A stretch of 36,203 nt of DNA from Tenericutes bacterium HGW-Tenericutes-2. GTDB taxonomy: Bacteria; Bacillota_I; Bacilli_A; Acholeplasmatales; Acholeplasmataceae. Location of the stretch: NCBI GenBank assembly GCA_002839095.1, contig PGXL01000015.1:1-36203 (forward strand). The letters run 5' to 3'. The position numbers were made by a program, and so were the translations under genes. Shown here one piece after another: positions 24,148 through 36,203 of this stretch. Under the pieces are notes generated by a model, which saw only the letters and a list, made by a program, of their open reading frames with translations, ran no database searches and was not told the DNA's origin. The first letter of the stretch is position 1; every line of letters begins with the position of its first letter.

Positions 24148-24329
24148 GCTATTCAATGATATGACTCCATATTCATATAAACTTAATATTAGCATCTTTT
24201 GAAGTTTTCAATTTGAATCCTTATCTTTTAACTTGAAAAAGACGTTGACATGAAATATATAAAAATGAGTACTCAATATTCATAATATATTCATATATTT
24301 TTTTTAAGATGATAATAGAGGTATAAAAC

Positions 24330-25250
24330 ATGGAAAAAATGAGAAAATTTAGAAAAAAACTGGTGATACTTTTATTAATACTATCCTTTTCAATTTTTAT
24401 GTATGGATTAAACCAAAACAACAATGTCAATAAATTACTGGATGAATTTATTAATCGTAGTCTTGAAGAACAAACTGTGACAGTACAGTTTGAAAGTGGT
24501 ATTGAAGAAATTCGCATGTACCATCCAGTTGAAAGAACTAAAGATTATGAATTATTTGATCCAAGGAGTGTCTTTTATACAACGCAAGACGAACCTTATC
24601 TTGGACAAAAAGGAGATATTTTTGTAACTCAAGAATCTCCATTTCCTAATATCTTTGGTGTTCATCAAGCGATGTCTTTTTTTGTGGGAGGACACGCAGC
24701 ACTAAATAATGGAAGCAATCAATTTATAGAAGCCGTTGGATTTCCACAAAGTGACGAGCGTATTATAGATATTATTAGAGATCCATCTGATGGTACGCAT
24801 GACTTTTCTGTTGGCGTGAGGCAGTCATCAACTAATTATTGGATGTTACCAAACTTTAGAACTAAAACTGATGTTTCATATTCATCCTATGGATCCTACT
24901 ATAGAGAGAACTTTATAATTCTAAGGGTGAAAAATGTTAATGAGGTCACTTTAGATCAGACCATGGATTATGCGAATAAACATTTATTAAATCGTTCTCT
25001 TTATAATTTTTTATTTATTGCTGACACGCATAATAAATTTTATTGTACAGATTTTATCAGTCGCTCATATCGGTATGGAATCAATCCATCAACTAAAGAC
25101 AAAAACTATCCGAAAACGCTCAATGATAACGGGTTTGTTACAACAGTCAACGATTTGATTTTATCAAAAAACACATATATAGCAGCTTATATTGAAAATA
25201 GAGACGGTATTAGGCATATATATTATTTAGAAAACATAGTATTGACATAG
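24330..25250 (+). CDS. YiiX-like (NlpC/P60-type) cysteine hydrolase, membrane-anchored
   Basis: A 306-residue protein with an N-terminal signal anchor (residues about 10-27, LVILLLILSFSIFMYG) and no lipobox. The soluble part begins about residue 85 with KGDIFVTQ and matches the permuted NlpC/P60 YiiX/YebB family: GGHAAL with candidate H122, then FIEAVG, then FYCTDFISRS with candidate nucleophile C239. Such enzymes are extracellular hydrolases of lipids or peptides; the substrate is unknown. It comes after the phage terminator and before the copper operon, whose -35 element lies in its last codons. It starts at ATG 24330 behind AGAGGTATAAAAC. Confidence 0.7.
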   Translation: MEKMRKFRKKLVILLLILSFSIFMYGLNQNNNVNKLLDEFINRSLEEQTVTVQFESGIEEIRMYHPVERTKDYELFDPRSVFYTTQDEPYLGQKGDIFVTQESPFPNIFGVHQAMSFFVGGHAALNNGSNQFIEAVGFPQSDERIIDIIRDPSDGTHDFSVGVRQSSTNYWMLPNFRTKTDVSYSSYGSYYRENFIILRVKNVNEVTLDQTMDYANKHLLNRSLYNFLFIADTHNKFYCTDFISRSYRYGINPSTKDKNYPKTLNDNGFVTTVNDLILSKNTYIAAYIENRDGIRHIYYLENIVLT

Positions 25251-25545: not shown

Positions 25546-28020
25546 ATGGATAAAAACATGAAGTTTCAAGTAAATGGCATGACATGTGCATCATGTGTAA
25601 ACCATGTGGAAAAAGCATTAAAAAAAGTCGAAGGTGTTATAGAAGCATCTGTTAACTTAGCTACTGAAACTGCATTGATTCAATATGACGAGGAACATTT
25701 TAATCCAGAAATTGCAATCAGTAGTGTCAAACATATTGGATATACACTTGTAATAGACGAAAAAAAGTATAAGCATATATCGGTAGTTATTGATGGCATG
25801 AGTTGTGCATCATGTGCAATAAAAATTGAGCAATCATTGGAGAAGTTAAAAGGCATCCATCATGTTTATGTGAATTTGGCTACTGAAAAAGCTGTGATTC
25901 AATATGATGAACATCTGCTAAGATTTAGTGATATAAAGCATACGATCAAGCAATTGGGCTATAATGTTCAGCTTGAAGTATCCAATGTTGATGTAATTGA
26001 TCCAGATATCATTAAAATGAATCACGCCAAAAAAAGAGTTAAAATGAGTGCTCTAGTCACTTCATTGATGATGTCTATGATGGTGATTCATATGTTTATC
26101 GTTGAAATACCATATTACACATGGCTTGTAGCTATCATGGGTTTTCCTGTCATTTTTGTGATCGGGCGTCATGTTCACAGAGGTAGCTACTATTCACTTA
26201 AATCGCTCAAACCAAATATGGATGTCCTTGTCTCACTCGGTTCAATACCACCATACCTTATAGGACTCATGGGGTTATTTTTCCCGATAACAACGTTTAT
26301 CGAAATGGCGACGACAATTATGACTTTCCATCTCATCGGCAAATATCTAGAAAGCAAAGCAAAAGGAAAAGCATCACAAGCCATCAAAAAATTGATGGAA
26401 TTAGGTGCAAAAACAGCACGTATTATAATTGACGATAGTGAAATTGAAGTTTTGACTAGTGAACTTAGTGTAGGAGATGTCATGGTGATTAAGCCAGGAG
26501 AAAAAATTCCTACAGATGGAACTATACTTGAAGGAAAAAGCATGATTGATGAGTCGATTGCCACAGGTGAGTCCATGCCTGTCAAAAAGAATGTAGGTGA
26601 TACGGTCATAGGTGCTACAATCAACAAGGATGGACTACTAAAAGTAGAAGTGACGAAAATTGGTCAGGATACTTTTCTATCGCAAGTCATCAAAATGGTT
26701 GAAGCATGTCAAGGATCAAAAGTACCAATTCAAGAGTTTGCAGATCGTATTACATCTTATTTTGTGCCCGCGATTATGGTCTTAACGCTGCTGACATTTG
26801 GTTCATTCTTAATTTTCAAGGATTTTCATTTAGGTATCTTGCGATATATGTCATCTATCTTGCCTTGGATTAATACTGATCAAACACCATTGACATTGGC
26901 ATTTATAACAGCAACTGCAGTACTCGTCATTGCTTGTCCATGTGCGCTTGGTTTAGGTACTCCAACTGCATTAATGGTGGGCAGTGGTGTTGGCGCTGAG
27001 AAAGGTATTTTAATCAGAAATGGTGAAGCAGTTCAAACTTTAAAAGACATCAAAGCTATTGCTTTTGATAAAACAGGAACACTAACCTATGGTAAACCTG
27101 TCGTAACAGATAAACACGCTTTACATATAGAGGAGCAACGAATGATGGTAATCGCAGCTTCTCTCGAAACTGGTTCAGAACATCCATTGGCATTGGCTAT
27201 CATAGATGATGTAAGAAAGGATAATCAATTATTAAGTAATCCTAAGGAGTTTCAAGCTATTTCTGGCATGGGGATTAAAGGTTTAATTGATGATCAAGTG
27301 TATTATTTTGGTAATCGAAAGTTGATGAAGTCGATAGGACATACATACGAAGGTTTAGAATCCATGATGCAACAACTTGAGCATGAAGCTAAAACTGTCA
27401 TGATGCTAGCAAATGACATTCAAATATTGGGTATCATTGCAGTTGCAGATGCATTAAAGCCTGAAGCAGTTCATGTCATTAAAGCGATAGAAAAACTGGG
27501 AATTACAACTGCAATGATTACAGGGGACAATGATAGGACTGCTCAAGCCATTGCAAAAAAAGCAGGCATTTCCAGAATTATATCTGATGTCCTACCAGAG
27601 GGCAAAGTCAGTGAAGTGATTCTACTTCAAAAAGAATTTGGCTTAGTTGCAATGGTCGGTGATGGTATCAATGATGCACCAGCATTAAAGCAAGCTAATG
27701 TGGGTATAGCTATTGGTACTGGTACAGACATAGCAAAAGAAGCGGCAGATGTTACACTTGTGTCTGGAGAACTACATACACTTTTAACTGCAATTCAGTT
27801 ATCAAAAGCTATTTTTAAGAAAATTAAAGAAAATTATTTTTGGGCTTGGTTTTATAATGCGATTGCAATCCCATTTGCTATGTTAGGATTACTACATCCA
27901 ATGATTGGTGCTGCTGCAATGTCATTAAGTTCGCTTAATGTAATCTATAATTCTTTAAGATTAAAAAAACTTTCCTTTTTAAAAAGTGAGAAAGAGTTAA
28001 CTTATGCACTCAAATCATAG
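25546..28020 (+). CDS. copA: Copper-exporting P-type ATPase CopA
   Basis: An 824-residue P1B-type ATPase. Two N-terminal heavy-metal domains carry GMTCASC and GMSCASC. The transmembrane metal site is CPC (C464) in CPCALGLGTPT. The phosphorylated Asp is D508 in DKTGTLT, and [13 protein letters not shown] completes the ATP-binding domain. This defines the Cu(I)-export class in the cytoplasmic membrane. AAGGAGGAAT precedes the ATG. It overlaps the Lgt gene by 17 bases, implying coupled expression. No odd features. Confidence 0.97.
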   Translation: MDKNMKFQVNGMTCASCVNHVEKALKKVEGVIEASVNLATETALIQYDEEHFNPEIAISSVKHIGYTLVIDEKKYKHISVVIDGMSCASCAIKIEQSLEKLKGIHHVYVNLATEKAVIQYDEHLLRFSDIKHTIKQLGYNVQLEVSNVDVIDPDIIKMNHAKKRVKMSALVTSLMMSMMVIHMFIVEIPYYTWLVAIMGFPVIFVIGRHVHRGSYYSLKSLKPNMDVLVSLGSIPPYLIGLMGLFFPITTFIEMATTIMTFHLIGKYLESKAKGKASQAIKKLMELGAKTARIIIDDSEIEVLTSELSVGDVMVIKPGEKIPTDGTILEGKSMIDESIATGESMPVKKNVGDTVIGATINKDGLLKVEVTKIGQDTFLSQVIKMVEACQGSKVPIQEFADRITSYFVPAIMVLTLLTFGSFLIFKDFHLGILRYMSSILPWINTDQTPLTLAFITATAVLVIACPCALGLGTPTALMVGSGVGAEKGILIRNGEAVQTLKDIKAIAFDKTGTLTYGKPVVTDKHALHIEEQRMMVIAASLETGSEHPLALAIIDDVRKDNQLLSNPKEFQAISGMGIKGLIDDQVYYFGNRKLMKSIGHTYEGLESMMQQLEHEAKTVMMLANDIQILGIIAVADALKPEAVHVIKAIEKLGITTAMITGDNDRTAQAIAKKAGISRIISDVLPEGKVSEVILLQKEFGLVAMVGDGINDAPALKQANVGIAIGTGTDIAKEAADVTLVSGELHTLLTAIQLSKAIFKKIKENYFWAWFYNAIAIPFAMLGLLHPMIGAAAMSLSSLNVIYNSLRLKKLSFLKSEKELTYALKS

Positions 28021-28933
28021 TAGCAAACATCTTAATCATCAGTATATGATTATGATTCACATCTTTTTGATGGTATTACTTATAGCAGTTGGAAGTCAAA
28101 ATGGTGCGCCATATTCGCGAGTCGCCATCGATTTAGGTCGTGTGCAAGTTTACTGGTATGCCATCTTCATCATGACCGGCATCTTTTTAGCAGCCTATCA
28201 CAGCCAAAAAGAGCTCAATCGCATGGGGTATCCTAAAGACATTATATATGATGGATTATTGATTGGATTACCTTTGGCATTACTGGGTGCTAGACTTTAT
28301 TATGTACTTTTTGATCCGCTACCACATTACAATTCATTCATAGATATAATCAATATTTCTAAAGGTGGATTAGCAATCCATGGAGCTATCATTACAACTT
28401 TGATTTTTGTACCAATTTTTTGCAAATTTAAAAAAATAAAATTACTTCCGCTATTAGACGTTCTTATGATTGGTTTTCTTATTGGGCAAATCATTGGCAG
28501 GTTCGGTAATTTCATGAACCATGAAGCTTATGGACCTGCTATTCAATCAGAACTCATAATCAATTTATTGCCCAAATTTATAGTTGAGCAAATGACACTT
28601 GGTGATGTTGTACATCATCCTACATTCCTATATGAAGGACTATGGAACCTAACCTTACTTGTAGCACTCATTGTGCTAAAAAAGAAACGGTTGCTTAAGA
28701 CGGGCGAAAATCTTGGTTTATATTTAATATGGTATGGACTTGGAAGGGGTTTAATCATTGAACCTATGCGAGTTAATGGAGCCTATGGAGATGCTTTAAT
28801 GTTAATGAATATACCCGTCAACATATTGATGTCCCTTGTTTTTGTGGGCTTAGGGATTTCATACTTGCTATTTAGTAGATATAAAATGAAAAGTTTACCT
28901 TATCAAACAGACTTGTTAATTGAAAAGAACTAG
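28004..28933 (+). CDS. lgt: Prolipoprotein diacylglyceryl transferase in copper operon
   Basis: A 309-residue multipass membrane enzyme that transfers diacylglycerol from phosphatidylglycerol to the lipobox Cys of prolipoproteins. The signature GRFGNFMNHEAYG is present (about residue 165), along with the GGLAIHGAI His motif (about residue 122) and the GRGLIIEPMR C-terminal Arg motif (about residue 248); all active-site positions look conserved. About 25 extra His/Asn-rich N-terminal residues precede the first helix (MHSNHSSKHLNH), unusual and possibly metal-binding. It overlaps copA by 17 bases, so it is expressed with copper export. Accessory Lgt copies in copper islands of Firmicutes are known to me. 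No lipoprotein substrate is visible here. Confidence 0.93.
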   Translation: MHSNHSSKHLNHQYMIMIHIFLMVLLIAVGSQNGAPYSRVAIDLGRVQVYWYAIFIMTGIFLAAYHSQKELNRMGYPKDIIYDGLLIGLPLALLGARLYYVLFDPLPHYNSFIDIINISKGGLAIHGAIITTLIFVPIFCKFKKIKLLPLLDVLMIGFLIGQIIGRFGNFMNHEAYGPAIQSELIINLLPKFIVEQMTLGDVVHHPTFLYEGLWNLTLLVALIVLKKKRLLKTGENLGLYLIWYGLGRGLIIEPMRVNGAYGDALMLMNIPVNILMSLVFVGLGISYLLFSRYKMKSLPYQTDLLIEKN

Positions 28934-29022: not shown

Positions 29023-31065
29023 TTAAATTTTTAATAATCTCGCATTAATTGCAACAATGACAGTACTCAATGACATGAGTACAGCTCCAACTGCTGGACT
29101 CAATAGGATACCTATAGAACTTAAAACACCTGCAGCTAATGGAATCGCAACAATATTGTATCCGGTTGCCCAAATGAGATTTTGAATCATTTTTTTATAA
29201 GTTGATTTCGACAATTTAATAATATTAACAACATCCATAGGATTGCTCTTGACCAAAATGACATCTGCAGTCTCAATAGCAACATCTGTACCCGCACCTA
29301 TAGCGATACCAAGATGTGCTTTTGCTAAGGCAGGGGCATCATTGATACCATCACCAGTCATAGCTACCATTCGTCTTTCTTTTGTAAGTAATTCAATCTG
29401 ATGTGACTTTTGTTCTGGTAATACTTCAGCAATCACATATGTTATACCAATCTTTTTTGCAACCTCTTCAGCGACTTTTTGGTTATCGCCAGTAAGCATA
29501 ATAGATTCAATACCCATTTTCTTGAGTGTCTCAATCGCTTCTTTAGATTGTTTTCTAATCACATCACTTAAAGCGATATGTCCCACTAAAACTCTATCAT
29601 TTAGTACGAAAACAACAGTATTACCTTGACTAGCTAATGTATCATAATCCTTTTCATCAAATGCAATTCTTTGTTCTTTCAAATAGCCTGGGCTAACTAC
29701 TTCAATCGTCGAATTATTAACAATCCCTGTCAACCCTTTTCCAGGAATTGCTTGAATGTTTTGACCTTTTTGAAGTATGATACTCTTTTCTTTCGCTGCT
29801 CTAACGATGGCTTTTGCAATAGGATGTTCTGATTCATTTTCAACAGCATAAGCTAAAGACAATAATTCATTTTCATTTAGGTTTTCACTCGAAATTTTTG
29901 TTATACCAAATTCACCTTGCGTTAATGTCCCTGTTTTATCAAAAACAACAGTGTCGATTTTACGTGCATTTTCGAAGTTTGCACGATTTCTAATGAGTAA
30001 ACCGTGCTTTGCACCAATACTAGAAGATACTGCAGTAACTAAAGGTGTTGCTAAACCGAGCGCGTGAGGACATGAAATAATCACTACTGTAACTGCTCTT
30101 TCCATAGCAAATCCAATATCTTTCCCCAATAACGTCCAAATAATAAAAGTGCTTATTCCACCTATTAATGCGACATAGAATAAATATTTAGCAGCTATGT
30201 CAGCGATTCTTTGGGTCTTAGATCGCGTTTTTTGGGCATCTCTTACCAGTTTAATGACTTGTGAAAGGAAAGTATGCTCTCCAATTCGAGTCACTTCATA
30301 TTTAAGCGATCCCTCAGCATTAATAGATCCACCAATAAGCTCATCACCTTCTGATTTAATCACAGGCAGGGATTCTCCAGTTAACATTGACTCATTTACT
30401 GAAGATTTTCCTTCTATGATTATTCCATCAATTGGTATTTTTTCTCCGGGGCGCACCAATAAAACCATACCTACTTTAACACTAGATAATGCTATATCTG
30501 TAACATGACCGTCCTGATTGATGACATGTGCTTCTTCAGGCATTAACTTTAATAGTTCGTCGAGAGCTCTTGATGCGCCGAGTACAGATTTCATTTCAAT
30601 CCAATGGCCAAGAAGCATGATCGAAATCAATGTTGATAATTCCCAAAAGAAATCTTGTCCGATTTGGAAGACAACTGTATAGGCACTATAAAAGTAAGCT
30701 ACACCAATGGCGAGCCCAATGAGCGACATCATAGCAGGTGCCTTTTGTTTGATTTCATCTAAGGTACCTTTGAAGAAAGGCAATCCTCCATATATAAATA
30801 ATACCGTTGAAAGAAGTAGTAAAATGTATAAGTCACCAACAAATCTCAAATCAATTCTAAGGAACTCTTGAATCATTGGTGATAAAGTCAAAATAGGAAT
30901 CAATAGAATAAGTGATATAAAAAATCTTCTTTTAAAATCACTAACCATCATCGCATGATGATCGTGGTGATTATTTTGATTGTGAGAGTTGTGATGCTGA
31001 TTATGTTCATTATGGTTATGCTCTTGATGCATTTCATGATGATGTTGATGCTTATGACTATCCAT
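29023..31065 (-). CDS. copB: CopB-type copper P-type ATPase
   Basis: A 680-residue P1B-type ATPase. The N-terminal 37 residues are a His-rich tail (many HH and HNH blocks) instead of Cys-type heavy-metal domains. The membrane metal motif is CPH (C332) in [11 protein letters not shown], and the phosphorylated Asp is D376 in DKTGTLT. CPH plus a His tail defines the CopB class, linked to Cu(II)/Ag(I) export, complementary to the CPC-type CopA. It is the last gene of the csoR-cueP-copB unit. It starts at ATG 31065 behind AAAGGAGGATTAAA. Confidence 0.95.
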
Positions 31066-31077
31066 TTTAATCCTCCT

Positions 31078-31635
31078 TTAGTTTAATTTTAGGGTAGTTA
31101 GACAAGTATTTGATGTACTAAACGTAGAAACCTCATCTGTAGCAGATAATCCATTATAGGTAACTGTTAATTGATAGTTCTTATTTTTGGGTAACCATAT
31201 GCCAGCAAATCCATTTGCACTACTTGTGATATTGTCTTCGAAAATAGTACTATTTGTTTGGGAATCTACTACTTTAACAGCAAATGATATGTTCTTCAAT
31301 TCTCCTCTGCAAGTGACTAAGTTATGATTTGCACAGGGATGTGTCTGATTGATATATGGAGCAAACGAAAGGTAAAACTGACCGTTAGGTAAGTCAAGTT
31401 CTACTTGATGATTTGCATCACCTAATAACAATTTCGATCCTGTGATTCCAGCACTAAAATTTGCTGGTTCATCTAGTCTGTTTTCTAGATAACTGACGAT
31501 TTCTTTAACACTCATACCATCTAAATCATAACGAGTTAGGAAGTCATTTCGATTTGGTGTTTTTAATGCGACTAAAACGATTGCTCCGAAAAATAAGAAA
31601 AATACAGAAATTGCAATGATTGTTTTTTTGTTCAT
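31078..31635 (-). CDS. cueP: CueP-like copper-binding protein
   Basis: A 185-residue protein with an N-terminal hydrophobic anchor (KKTIIAISVFFLFFGAIVLVAL). The CueP-type metal motif is visible as HPC at H99-C101, then H104 and C109 (NHNLVTCRGEL). Known CueP proteins are periplasmic copper-binding, protein-disulfide or copper-reducing factors; here it would lie on the outer face of the cell membrane. ATG 31635 is preferred because GAGG lies 6-9 bases upstream; a longer frame from 31647 overlaps csoR as ATGA. It is translated between csoR and copB. Confidence 0.88.
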   Translation of the reverse strand: MNKKTIIAISVFFLFFGAIVLVALKTPNRNDFLTRYDLDGMSVKEIVSYLENRLDEPANFSAGITGSKLLLGDANHQVELDLPNGQFYLSFAPYINQTHPCANHNLVTCRGELKNISFAVKVVDSQTNSTIFEDNITSSANGFAGIWLPKNKNYQLTVTYNGLSATDEVSTFSTSNTCLTTLKLN

Positions 31636-31643
31636 ACTAGACC

Positions 31644-31934
31644 TCATCTTAAATATTTCACTAAAATTTCAGTGATTTCATCAATTTTTTCTTTACCCTT
31701 TTGCTCCATAATTGCTTCACTGACGCAAGTGCTAATATGATCGTTTAAAATCAATGCATTTGTGTTTTGAAGCATTGCAATGACAGACAGTATTTGTTTT
31801 GATATGTCTACACAATATCTACCATCTTCATACATTTTCAGTATGCCTTCCATTTGACCACGTCCTGTCTTTAATAGCTGTTTAATCTTTTCTGCATTCA
31901 TGTGATGTGATTTGTCTTGATGCAAGTGATTCAT
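31644..31934 (-). CDS. csoR: Copper-sensing repressor CsoR
   Basis: A 96-residue all-helical DUF156 repressor. The Cu(I) ligands are C41 (RYCVDIS), H66 and C70 (NDHISTC), with the same spacing as C36-H61-C65 of the founding CsoR. Start ATG 31934 has TAAGGAGGAAATTT upstream; an open frame extends through the operator to 31979 but no ribosome site supports it. A His-rich N-terminal tail (HLHQDKSHHM) precedes the fold. It should bind the duplicated dyad at 31948 and 25277, controlling itself, cueP, copB and the copZ-copA-lgt unit. Copper binding would release DNA. Confidence 0.92.
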   Translation of the reverse strand: MNHLHQDKSHHMNAEKIKQLLKTGRGQMEGILKMYEDGRYCVDISKQILSVIAMLQNTNALILNDHISTCVSEAIMEQKGKEKIDEITEILVKYLR

Positions 31935-31947
31935 AAATTTCCTCCTT

Positions 31948-31968
31948 ACACCCCACCACGGGAGGGGT
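31948..31968 (-). promoter_or_regulatory. Candidate CsoR operator, csoR side
   Basis: Identical 21-bp dyad to the one at 25277, with CCCC and GGGG arms, located just upstream of the csoR ribosome site. It overlaps the start of the csoR transcript region, giving autoregulation. Confidence 0.8.
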
Positions 31969-31979
31969 TTGTTATACAT

Positions 31980-32007: not shown

Positions 32008-32070
32008 ATACATTTTTTCATTCATTATCTGTTCATAATCCTATGATATTATAATGTCGAGGTGAAAGAG

Positions 32071-32400
32071 ATGAAAAGAAAGCAAGGAATCGTTTTTGGG
32101 GTACTAATTGGGATTTTTGTGATTGCAGCACTCATATTTTGGTATTATTCTCCAAGGTGGTTTGAAAATAGTGAGTATCCTTATTATGGTCATATGATTG
32201 GTGGTTGGGGTATGCCGTTTGGAATGCTTGCAATGGGTTTATTTTGGATTGCAGTTATTTATGTTGCGTTCAATGGACACAGTTATCATAATGAATGCAG
32301 ACGTGATAGAGCAAACGAAGAATTAAAAATACGTCTTGCAAAAGGTGAAATTACAATTGATGAGTATGAAAAATTACTTGAAAAGATGAGGGATAAATAA
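32071..32400 (+). CDS. SHOCT-domain membrane protein
   Basis: A 109-residue membrane protein (ATG 32071 with CGAGGTGAAAGAG upstream; the longer frame from GTG 32062 is unlikely). Two hydrophobic segments (about residues 4-22 and 40-65; YYGHMIGGWGMPFGMLAMG between them is Gly/Met-rich) lead to a C-terminal SHOCT motif (RLAKGEITIDEYEKLLEKM), a short oligomerisation helix pair. It sits divergent from csoR and precedes a Met-rich secreted protein with which it seems co-transcribed. Such proteins often accompany copper systems, but the role is unproven. Confidence 0.75.
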   Translation: MKRKQGIVFGVLIGIFVIAALIFWYYSPRWFENSEYPYYGHMIGGWGMPFGMLAMGLFWIAVIYVAFNGHSYHNECRRDRANEELKIRLAKGEITIDEYEKLLEKMRDK

Positions 32401-32401
32401 C

Positions 32402-33013
32402 ATGAGAAAAAGCACTATTATTTTAGGATTGGCAGTAATCATTATATTTACTGGCATGTTTTCAATGTTCGTAGTCAACACATATGGGCGGGAAACAGAT
32501 AACGCTATCATTACTATAAACATGAGTCAACATGGTATGATGGGGTTCGCCAGTGAGATAAATAATTATGAAAGAGCTTATTTACATCTTAATACTGAGA
32601 ATCAAACAAAAATTGATTTAGCATTTGCGAGTGAATTATTATCAGTTAATATGCAAGGATACTCTAACCTTGAGGTAGTTGAAGTTATTCATCAAGTAAA
32701 ATCCAATATTTTAGACACTATTCAGTTTGAATACACAAGCCAACGATATGGAATGATGGGCGGTAACATGATGAGATACGACAGTAATGATCAATATACT
32801 TCGTGTGGATATCAAAATAGAGTTAACTCATATGAGTGGCTATACACTCATTCAGATGAAGAGCAAAAACTAAATTTTGATTTAAAATTTGCTAACGCAA
32901 TCATGCAATTAGATATGGATAGTCTAACAGCGACTGAACTTGTAGAAAAAATAAGTGAAATTAAACTAGCACTAATTGATCAAGTCTTAAATCCAGTACA
33001 ATCGAACGAATAA
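32402..33013 (+). CDS. Met-rich secreted/anchored protein with internal repeat
   Basis: A 203-residue protein with an N-terminal signal anchor (TIILGLAVIIIFTGMFSMFVV). Two homologous helical halves are visible: from NNYERAYLHL (about residue 56) to VIHQVKSNILD, and from NSYEWLYTHS (about residue 141) to EISEIKLALID, each about 57 residues. Met-rich clusters occur before and between them (SQHGMMGF near residue 43; YGMMGGNMMRY near residue 118), reminiscent of extracellular copper-binding sites. It begins one base after the SHOCT gene stop and ends before a terminator. Copper binding is inferred. Confidence 0.65.
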   Translation: MRKSTIILGLAVIIIFTGMFSMFVVNTYGRETDNAIITINMSQHGMMGFASEINNYERAYLHLNTENQTKIDLAFASELLSVNMQGYSNLEVVEVIHQVKSNILDTIQFEYTSQRYGMMGGNMMRYDSNDQYTSCGYQNRVNSYEWLYTHSDEEQKLNFDLKFANAIMQLDMDSLTATELVEKISEIKLALIDQVLNPVQSNE

Positions 33014-33085: not shown

Positions 33086-33766
33086 TTGAAAATACTAATT
33101 GTTGAAGATTATCCTAAAATTAATCAAATGCTTGCAATCTATGCGCGTAAAGATGGACACGAAGTAAAACAAGTTTATGATGGAGAAATTGCACTTGAAA
33201 CCACAAAAAATGAAAAATTTGATGTGATTCTTTTAGATCTAATGCTTCCTGGTATTCAAGGTGAAGAATTAATCAAACTAATACGCAAAGTTTCAGATGT
33301 GTACATTATCGTTCTTTCAGCAAAAATTGATGTGAAGGATCGAATTGATGTGATTACCATTGGTGCCGATGACTACATGACAAAACCTTTTTCGATTGAA
33401 GAGGTTATGGCTAAAATAAGAAACTTGGAGAAAAGATTGATTTTAAATCATCCGAATATTTATACCTTTAATCATAGTCATTTGAAAGTGCTTCCCCTTT
33501 CTAGAGAAGTATACGTTAACAATGAATTGATTTATTTAACACAATATGAATATGATGTATTAATGTATCTGCTGAAACATCCCAATATTGTGTTTTCTAG
33601 AGAAGCGATTATTGAACACTGTTTTTCACATAGTGACGCTTTTGATCGGGTCATCGATGTTTTCATCAAAAATATCCGAAAAAAAATAGATTTACTGCCT
33701 GGACAGTCATATATTAAAACACATTATGGAGTTGGTTATCAATTTGTAGGAGAACGAGATGAATAG
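33086..33766 (+). CDS. OmpR-family response regulator
   Basis: A 226-residue regulator. Receiver domain, residues 1-115: KILIVEDYPK, phosphoacceptor D51 in VILLDLMLPG, then TKPFS with the conserved Lys. Winged-helix DNA-binding domain, residues about 130-222 (ending YIKTHYGVGYQFVGE). The start is TTG 33086 behind AAGGAAGTGATG. It overlaps the kinase gene by 8 bases. It lies downstream of copper genes but with a terminator between, so a copper link is only possible. The target genes are unknown. Confidence 0.92.
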   Translation: MKILIVEDYPKINQMLAIYARKDGHEVKQVYDGEIALETTKNEKFDVILLDLMLPGIQGEELIKLIRKVSDVYIIVLSAKIDVKDRIDVITIGADDYMTKPFSIEEVMAKIRNLEKRLILNHPNIYTFNHSHLKVLPLSREVYVNNELIYLTQYEYDVLMYLLKHPNIVFSREAIIEHCFSHSDAFDRVIDVFIKNIRKKIDLLPGQSYIKTHYGVGYQFVGERDE

Positions 33767-34991
33767 TATAAAACACTTGCTTATCTCTCAAATATTTAAA
33801 TCTATATTGATTATTTTCATGTCAACCATTTTTTTGTTAAATATCGCGTTTTATTTCTTTTCAAATGACCAATTCCAAAAAGAAATAGGAAGACAATTTG
33901 ATGCTTTATATAAAATGACGGCACATCTTTCAAAGGAGGAAAATTTACAAACACTCGAAGTTTACTTAGAGCATTACTCACACACCAACGATGTTATCAT
34001 TCATTTTAAGGATGATGATGGGGTAAGTGTTTTTTCAAATGATGATGAGCATTTACTACAAAGATTTGAAAAAGTATATTATGATGATATTCTTGTTGGT
34101 TATATTGCTGTAAATTTCGAGTCTTCAAGTTTGAGTAAAGATATGCTGTACGGATTCATTGGGTTAAATTTACTATCATTTACTCTTTTCGCATTTGGTG
34201 TTGTAATGTTGTTCAAGTTTCTAAAAAAAGAAAATTCAAAGATAAAAAATGATTTGCTTCATATCGGAGTTGAAGATTCGATTTTTACATACCGTGAAAT
34301 TATGACGATTCATGAAGAATTAATATCCAATCGTGCACAAAGAGATAAGCAGAAAAACACTTATGAAGCACATATAAAAAGTTTAGCACATGACATTAAA
34401 ACACCTTTATCAGTCTTAAAGATCTATGCGGATTCATTGATTAATGATATGCTTGAACCGTCAAAAGAAATACTAAATGAAATGAAAGAAGAAGTTGGCA
34501 AAATTTCGGACTTAATTCCCAAATTTATTGAACAAGATTATAACGAACTTCCATACGTTCAAGATATTTCCATATATATCAGTAAATTTGTAAAAAAATA
34601 TAGAGAAATTTTTGATAGTAAAAAGATAAGTATTGAAACGTATCTGGAATCATTAAAGCTCAATATCTCAGACAAGAATCTAGAACGTTTGATTGAACAT
34701 TTGACGATGAATGCTTTCTATTATTCAAAACATAATTCAACGATAAAGATAATTGTTGATGAACAAACTAGAACTCTTGTGATTGAAGATAATGGCATAG
34801 GTATGTCTAAAGAAACCATTCAAATGATTATGAAAAGTCCTTTTCGTGCGAAAGAAGCAATGATTTTGAATGAAAAGGGAAGTGGTATAGGATACCAAAT
34901 CATTCATGACATAATCAAACATACAGGAGCAAGGATACATATTGAAAGTGAAATAGATCATGGTACGAAAGTATCAGTACATTTTTTATGA
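33759..34991 (+). CDS. Sensor histidine kinase
   Basis: A 410-residue membrane kinase partnered with the preceding regulator. Two transmembrane segments (about residues 12-32 and 130-155) flank an extracellular sensor loop of roughly 95 residues. The HisKA box has phosphorylated H211 in SLAHDIKTPLSVL. The ATP-binding domain has an N-box around ERLIEHLTMNAFYYSK, G1 DNGIGMS and G2 GSGIGYQI. The sensor loop is acidic (FKDDDGVSVFSNDD) with no metal-type Cys/His motif, so the signal is unclear. Confidence 0.92.
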   Translation: MNSIKHLLISQIFKSILIIFMSTIFLLNIAFYFFSNDQFQKEIGRQFDALYKMTAHLSKEENLQTLEVYLEHYSHTNDVIIHFKDDDGVSVFSNDDEHLLQRFEKVYYDDILVGYIAVNFESSSLSKDMLYGFIGLNLLSFTLFAFGVVMLFKFLKKENSKIKNDLLHIGVEDSIFTYREIMTIHEELISNRAQRDKQKNTYEAHIKSLAHDIKTPLSVLKIYADSLINDMLEPSKEILNEMKEEVGKISDLIPKFIEQDYNELPYVQDISIYISKFVKKYREIFDSKKISIETYLESLKLNISDKNLERLIEHLTMNAFYYSKHNSTIKIIVDEQTRTLVIEDNGIGMSKETIQMIMKSPFRAKEAMILNEKGSGIGYQIIHDIIKHTGARIHIESEIDHGTKVSVHFL

Positions 34992-35909: not shown

Positions 35910-36203
35910 TCGATGTTCAAAATATGCTGTTTTTATCGATGATTAAAAATAGGTGATAATGTATAATAATGTTATGTTGTATACTCTAATATGAAAATAT
36001 GTTTCCAACGTTGAAAAAGTCTTGTAAATGGGAACATAAAATGGCTAAAAATATGTTTCCGACGCACAATATTCTGCATTTTTGCGAGCAATGGCAGTAA
36101 CTCAACGCAGCTTGTGTGTGAGAACATATTTGCTTAAAAGTGAATGAAAATGGACATTACTTATTGGACAAAAATAATTGAACTGATAAAATGCTTAGTT
36201 AAG
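35910..36203. other. Terminal non-coding stretch with repeated motifs
   Basis: 294 bases with no gene recognised. AAAATATGTTTCC(A/G)ACG occurs twice (35994-36010 and 36048-36064), and shorter inverted relatives (GGGAACATA at 36030, GAGAACATATTTG at 36120) alternate with them. TATAAT at 35962-35967 may be a promoter -10 without a clear -35. Confidence 0.5.
35994..36064. repeat. Direct repeat pair, possible insertion-sequence end or operator array
   Basis: Two 17-base copies differing at one position (A or G before ACG), 54 bases apart. Inverted partial copies lie at 36030 and 36120. Multiple repeats in alternating orientation suggest transposase or regulator binding sites. Confidence 0.4.

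Follow-up and report, generated by a model that had tools for sequence, protein, structure and literature searches.

A recurring set of SHOCT-like and Met-rich two-unit protein genes at copper loci of Acholeplasma-like bacteria

Layout of the copper cluster

The window (the whole stretch of DNA that was analysed, 36,203 nucleotides from Tenericutes bacterium HGW-Tenericutes-2, which is probably wall-less) carries a copper cluster in its right part, with genes for CopA, a second copper P-type ATPase, CueP, CsoR and a response regulator and histidine kinase. The features of this part, including the genes of two small proteins designated P0001 and P0002, are as follows:

24330..25250, + strand: Peptidase_C92-like secreted protein (PF05708 E 2e-4, 21.6 bits, below cut-off)
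25546..28020, + strand: CopA-type ATPase with two CASC (HMA) motifs, named by reading and matching its counterparts elsewhere
28004-28933, + strand: Lgt, named by reading
29023..31065, - strand: copper-translocating P-type ATPase with a His/Met-rich N-terminus (TIGR01511, 624.6 bits)
31078..31647, - strand: CueP family copper-binding protein (PF21172 E 3.3e-46; NF038094)
31644..31979, - strand: CsoR-type repressor, probable start 31934 (PF02583 E 2.4e-21)
31950..31968, strand not given: ACCCCACCACGGGAGGGGT, CsoR-operator-like G/C inverted repeat beside csoR
32021..32036, + strand: direct repeat TTCAT-N6-TTCAT, 11-bp phase, proposed response-regulator box
32047-32052, + strand: TATTAT, candidate -10 hexamer of the SHOCT-P0002 operon
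32071..32400, + strand: P0001, 109 aa; transmembrane (TM) helix, outer loop G-H-M...MPFGM, TM helix and cytoplasmic SHOCT-like tail, as read
32402..33013, + strand: P0002, 203 aa; putative signal peptide or anchor, two homologous units of three predicted helices, Met-rich loops
33086..33766, + strand: OmpR-type response regulator (PF00072, PF00486)
33759..34991, + strand: histidine kinase with a presumed extracellular sensor (Pfam scan)

The first-pass annotation had described P0001 and P0002 as two genes divergent from csoR and one base apart, and the coordinates agree, with a single base between the P0001 stop at 32400 and the P0002 start at 32402. It had omitted the regulator and kinase directly downstream and the genes of CueP and the copper ATPase on the csoR side. 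The ATG at 32071 is the likelier start of P0001 because the alternative, a GTG in frame at 32062, shares bases with the GAGGTG ribosome-binding site. CsoR possesses a Cys plus a His-x3-Cys, to which we assign the role presumed for such residues in CsoR proteins, and the inverted repeat on the csoR side, which we take to be of the type of known CsoR operators, is likely the CsoR site. An EamA transporter gene follows the regulator and kinase on the + strand. Positions 1-24106 have, on the basis of the ORF list, the look of phage or mobile DNA (a DNA methylase, an RHS-like 2253-aa protein and tail-like genes), and in locus L008 look-alikes of the RHS-like gene and of a 549-aa gene flank the copper cluster on its opposite side.

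P0001 and its SHOCT-like relatives

The TM helices and topology of P0001 were read from the sequence rather than with a predictor. Residues 83-105 align to positions 4-26 of the 28-position SHOCT profile PF09851 (E 7e-4, 19.6 bits), under the gathering cut-off of 27; the relative in L069 scores 26.2 bits, also below it, and a fused relative in L122 scores 32.2, above it. P0001 resembles SHOCT-domain proteins in its short C-terminal tail but differs from them in scoring under the cut-off and in that its conserved part includes the outer His-Met/Pro loop. Across 19 aligned P0001-like proteins, the inter-TM loop carries His-Met in 18, Pro in all 19 and P-x-G-M in 15, and is followed by a conserved SHOCT-like tail; the His-Met is lost in L076.

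SHOCT-like genes are present without P0002 in L085, L086 and L119, and in L120 none of the query copper genes is near them. A Met-rich stretch is fused to the SHOCT tail beside cueP in L121 and L122, from one genome of another bacterial family. In loci L123-L125, also from another bacterial family, a kinase gene (with regulator) is followed in order by a pair of SHOCT-like genes, the gene of a small secreted protein with one Cys, and cueP. The secreted protein (130-142 aa) was tried as a P0002 homologue and gave at best 4.6 bits by profile and an hhalign probability of 8.8; this is non-significant by profile and homology with P0002 is therefore not claimed, although by position it is a possible distant equivalent.

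Repeat structure and conserved residues of P0002

P0002 consists of two homologous halves, as the first-pass annotation had proposed: they are 30% identical over 60 aa (BLASTP E 5e-12), and the N-terminal unit is matched at E 1.8e-11 by profile A5, which was built from C-terminal and one-unit forms only. The putative export signal or anchor was read from the sequence by eye. Each unit is predicted to form a short helix with Y-E-x-x-Y-x-H followed by two longer helices. Ten-residue mean pLDDT is mostly 80-95 in the helices and below 50 in the Met-cluster loops; mean pLDDT is 65.5 for the full model (pTM 0.62) and 80.5 for a single unit.

Cys135, Tyr148 and His150 of the C-terminal unit are invariant in all 20 P0002 relatives of alignment A4 and lie at a near-fixed distance from one another. 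Each of these relatives has a single Cys, without a CxxC motif, and the N-terminal units therefore carry no Cys; in the five aligned N-terminal units the Cys is lost, whereas the His and one MM pair are kept.

The Met clusters described earlier are present in P0002, with MM pairs at 46, 118 and 123; the 10 Met residues after residue 28 yield these three pairs with a shuffle p of about 0.01. The corresponding p values are 0.002 for L076, 0.07 for L063 and 0.22 for L083, the last two being non-significant alone. L076 contains a GYGYGMMG-type motif three times and L084 has HMG twice in place of MM, and L069 has neither MM nor HMG, yet a full copper operon is present at its locus. Of the 20 aligned proteins, 18 have MM pairs and every one has the Cys and the His, so that Met enrichment is a tendency and the Cys and His are the constant feature. 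Met clusters had been pointed out as ligands of the type used for extracellular Cu(I); they are indeed common, but the constant residues are Cys, Tyr and His. Homologues without Met clusters, named at that time as evidence against a copper role, are found in part, because L069 lacks a Met motif.

Family and fold searches with P0002

P0002 scores below every Pfam and NCBIfam cut-off and matches no PDB sequence at E up to 10, which upholds, as far as searched, the earlier remark that it is not a known copper protein. Foldseek against the PDB returned nothing at E 0.001 or better with either the full model or the single unit. The 20 relatives, scanned singly, share no consistent Pfam family (18 families at E up to 1). 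DUF305 (PF03713, as we take its accession to be) is matched neither by these relatives (Pfam, E up to 1) nor by P0002, and P0002 does not match the CueP profile PF21172. Spy/CpxP-type or metal-resistance helical periplasmic families, presumably named LTXXQ and Metal_resist in Pfam, are absent from the Pfam matches at E up to 1, and no match named SilE or PcoE was found in Pfam or NCBIfam, which may hold no such model. Weak family matches of P0002 (ZoocinA_TRD, E 0.015; DUF7326, 0.63; YtrI, 0.73) were taken as chance, as were those to cytidylate kinase in 5/20 relatives (best 0.0034) and to a glycine-rich family in one of 20 (0.001); the best NCBIfam match of P0002, at E 0.73, is to an unrelated family. 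No relative was found on plasmids at E 0.01, and none was confirmed on viral contigs, in a search that reaches close relatives only. P0002 thus represents a family that is undescribed in the libraries searched. A set of SHOCT, P0002, CueP and two-component genes is not described in the available parts of the literature matches listed, and a literature search found no paper on SHOCT with CsoR; a term search of the accessible main text of the SHOCT domain paper did not find copper.

Distribution and gene neighbourhoods

By profile search, P0002 is present in 13 of 88 genomes of the family, in 17 of 160 genomes of the order and, at E below 1e-6, in 8 of 392 genomes sampled across the phylum, where the half-unit profile listed 25 genomes, 17 of them with E values no better than 7.5e-4 and regarded as chance. 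The same 88 family genomes contain CueP in 13 and a SHOCT-like gene in 14. P0002 and CueP, at 13 genomes each, have 12 in common (Fisher p 8e-13), and all 13 P0002 genomes possess the SHOCT-like gene (p 1e-14), both p values being too small because the genomes are related. G031 has P0002 and no CueP, and G040 has CueP and SHOCT and no P0002.

Twenty-five P0002 loci were read (the window, L063, L064, L065, L067-L084, L087, L126 and L127), with L065 continuing as L066 and with L003-L009, the same places as L126, L078, L068, L077, L072, L081 and L080, counted once. A copper gene (csoR, cueP, HMA protein, copA or copB/ATPase) lies in the stretch read at 23 of the 25 loci, which are non-independent because L068, L074 and L077 encode the same P0002 sequence. 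The two exceptions are L079, which starts at a contig end just before SHOCT, and L067, which has the SHOCT, P0002 and two-component genes but lacks a copper gene within the 9 kb read; CueP was not found in the L067 genome, which is 84% complete. The co-occurrence with copper genes that the first-pass annotation had suggested checking is therefore present, and the copper link of the P0002 loci is strongly supported.

In the genome-contig scan, the SHOCT-P0002-regulator-kinase order is divergent from csoR in all seven named-record loci (four Acholeplasmataceae MAGs, Tenericutes bacterium MO-XQ, Paracholeplasma vituli and Mycoplasmatota zrk7), and cueP and a CopB-type ATPase are found in six of them, being unseen in L003. 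L003 also contains, at 3-899 and upstream of the SHOCT-P0002 operon, a fragment of a second kinase that is 58% identical to that of the window, as if two copper clusters had once stood in tandem. The genome of origin has a second operon at about 117.4 kb of C2, in the order csoR, ATPase, HMA protein, SHOCT, one-unit P0002 (114 aa), cueP, regulator and kinase. One-unit forms are only 23-32% identical to P0002, and the partner genes are the same whether the arrangement is divergent or a single operon. The cueP gene follows P0002 directly in seven loci (L063, L069, L070, L071, L076, L083 and L084). L064 has P0002 beside an ATPase, with no adjoining SHOCT or two-component genes. The idea of a copper-handling pair thus survives in its copper link and not in its being self-standing, given L085, L086 and L119 without P0002 and L064 without SHOCT; the unit is SHOCT, P0002, CueP and the two-component system rather than a pair.

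Promoter repeat and two-component control

The repeat TTCA[TC]-N6-TTCA[CT] stands upstream of the SHOCT gene in 25 of 26 regions (23 from P0002 loci and three from loci without P0002), a count made on the same regions, several of them near-identical, from which the pattern was defined; the only region without it, that of L079, is cut by the contig end. Shuffled regions contain it in a mean of 0.19 and a maximum of 2 regions over 100 shuffles. In 23 of these 25 regions, L067 and L087 being the exceptions, a TATAAT-like hexamer (at least four positions) begins 10 bp downstream of the second half-site, a layout that we take to be that of a PhoB-type box. A less circular check is the genome-wide match: in the 2.3-Mb genome just two sites match repeat plus -10 box perfectly, and they precede the two paralogous SHOCT-P0002 operons. 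There are 11 genome matches, nine of them with one mismatch, compared with three for a reversed control, and most of the one-mismatch matches are probably chance. Among these, that at 24279-24294, 51 bp before the C92-like ATG and with its mismatch in the -10 box, is the one singled out here, because C92-like genes have the strict repeat upstream in 9 of 13 regions (absent in L063, L071, L139 and L140). The gene for the C92-like secreted protein recurs beside copper clusters, and the relatives in L063 and L071 score above the PF05708 cut-off.

His56, His72 and His75 of the kinase sensor are invariant in 18 of 18 aligned sequences. On these sequence features, the regulator may bind the repeat and the kinase may sense copper, and the P0001 and P0002 genes seem to be switched on by the neighbouring sensor pair.

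Proposed role and alternative readings

By analogy of function, the P0002 set appears most like CopM of copMRS and SilE. CopM of Synechocystis, in the available part of PMC4335983, is an exported protein of 196 aa with two copies of one domain (DUF305) and Met/His residues, which binds Cu(I) and confers copper resistance and whose gene shares an operon with those of a copper two-component system. P0002 likewise has two domain copies and Met/His residues, is predicted to be exported and lies next to a two-component system that would sense copper here. It differs from CopM in lacking DUF305, in its invariant Cys and in having a SHOCT protein and CueP as partners, and its relatives occur in Acholeplasma-like bacteria rather than in Synechocystis. 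SilE and PcoE also have a metal two-component system nearby. SilE takes up metal outside the cytoplasm through Met/His residues and is disordered without metal, according to the available part of PMC5008109. The P0002 units, in contrast to metal-free SilE, are predicted to be helical, with the Met loops at low confidence. CueP, an extracytoplasmic copper protein with Cys/His ligands, occurs in the same clusters as P0002, but the two are separate proteins.

P0001 and P0002 probably catch copper at the cell surface, and we hold with moderate confidence that P0002 buffers Cu(I) at the cell surface under the control of a two-component system of its own. P0001 and P0002 would be the part of a copper-resistance system that acts at the surface. 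The linked histidine kinase would sense an excess of outside copper via its conserved His residues, and the response regulator would bind the TTCAT-N6-TTCAY repeat, placed as a -35 box would be, and switch on the SHOCT, P0002, regulator and kinase genes and, elsewhere, cueP as well, with the C92-like gene as a probable further target. P0002 would be exported and then anchored or released at the cell surface, where its Cys/His pair and Met-rich loops would bind Cu(I) and so buffer it outside, perhaps exchanging it with CueP and the outer His-Met loop of the SHOCT protein, and CsoR would control the divergent CueP/ATPase operon from inside. In favour of this reading are the co-occurrence of P0002 with CueP and the SHOCT-like gene, the copper genes at 23 and the regulator and kinase at 22 of the 25 loci, the invariant Cys, Tyr and His, the Met repeats of L076, the upstream repeat, the three conserved His residues of the kinase and the fusion of a Met-rich stretch to SHOCT in L121 and L122. 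Against a buffer stand the Met clusters, which are not universal (none in L069, HMG in L084) and whose pairs are not in significant excess in L063 or L083 alone, L067 with neither copper gene nor CueP, the loci without P0002, and the counting of the repeat in the regions that defined it.

Next to a kinase gene, a small helical protein might just as well assist in signalling. On one alternative reading, P0001 and P0002 would be accessory sensors or feedback inhibitors of the linked kinase, in a CpxP-like role, and no copper store; the regulator and kinase are present in 22 of the 25 P0002 loci, the contig ending first in L065 and L084, and the promoter repeat is common to the operon. However, regulator and kinase accompany CueP without P0002 in L085, L086 and L119, so the kinase does not need P0002, P0002 conversely lacks them in L064, and the Met-rich loops and invariant Cys suggest ligand chemistry; this role is judged unlikely. 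Less likely still is that the invariant Cys serves as a thiol or redox partner for CueP, or in Cu(II) reduction, instead of buffering: the one Cys with Tyr and His at near-fixed distance and the seven loci with cueP directly after P0002 would suit such a role, but there is no CxxC or second Cys, and the N-terminal units that lost the Cys keep the His and an MM pair.

A broader form of the buffer reading can be put forward tentatively, namely that P0002 founds a new cell-surface Cu(I) family built on a repeatable three-helix Cys/His/Met unit, and that it forms a surface copper relay with the SHOCT outer His-Met loop and CueP in wall-less, periplasm-less bacteria, run by a kinase with three His residues and a promoter repeat. 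To our knowledge, copper buffers outside the cytoplasm have been described mostly in double-membraned bacteria. Acholeplasma-like cells have no wall, and the recurring set would show copper capture without a periplasm. P0002 also gives annotation a protein family that had been undescribed, and the promoter repeat a concrete handle for reading a regulon in uncultured genomes.

Mobility of the cluster and the right-end repeat

Five locus pairs that cross genus or family lines (L068-L074, L068-L081, L074-L081, L072-L080 and window-L078) have 10-11 kb in common at 92.6-96.0% DNA identity. In the first four pairs the match ends 155-193 bp after the kinase, its other end being set by the stretches fetched. 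The copper cluster appears from these matches to behave as a transferable block. Such transfer, together with a SHOCT membrane protein that is silver-induced in Haloferax in the available part of PMC10694973, would suit an action of P0001 and P0002 on another soft metal (Ag, Au) or in envelope stress, with copper neighbours merely co-mobilised on an island, but both gene orders keep their partners despite 23-32% P0002 identity, co-mobilisation alone would not hold the set together, and this is very improbable.

A repeat of about 115 bp lies at 35985-36110 of the window, after EamA. Of the 17 other loci compared, seven of which are the same places as others, 15 have it after a kinase; it is absent from L063 and L069. 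It gives no RNA structure signal (z -0.06 and -0.17) and no Rfam match at the gathering threshold. The repeat may be an island-end mark, and the genome of origin carries four further copies, two of them in tandem (G000 C42:159447-159699, C42:150847 and C52:31097).
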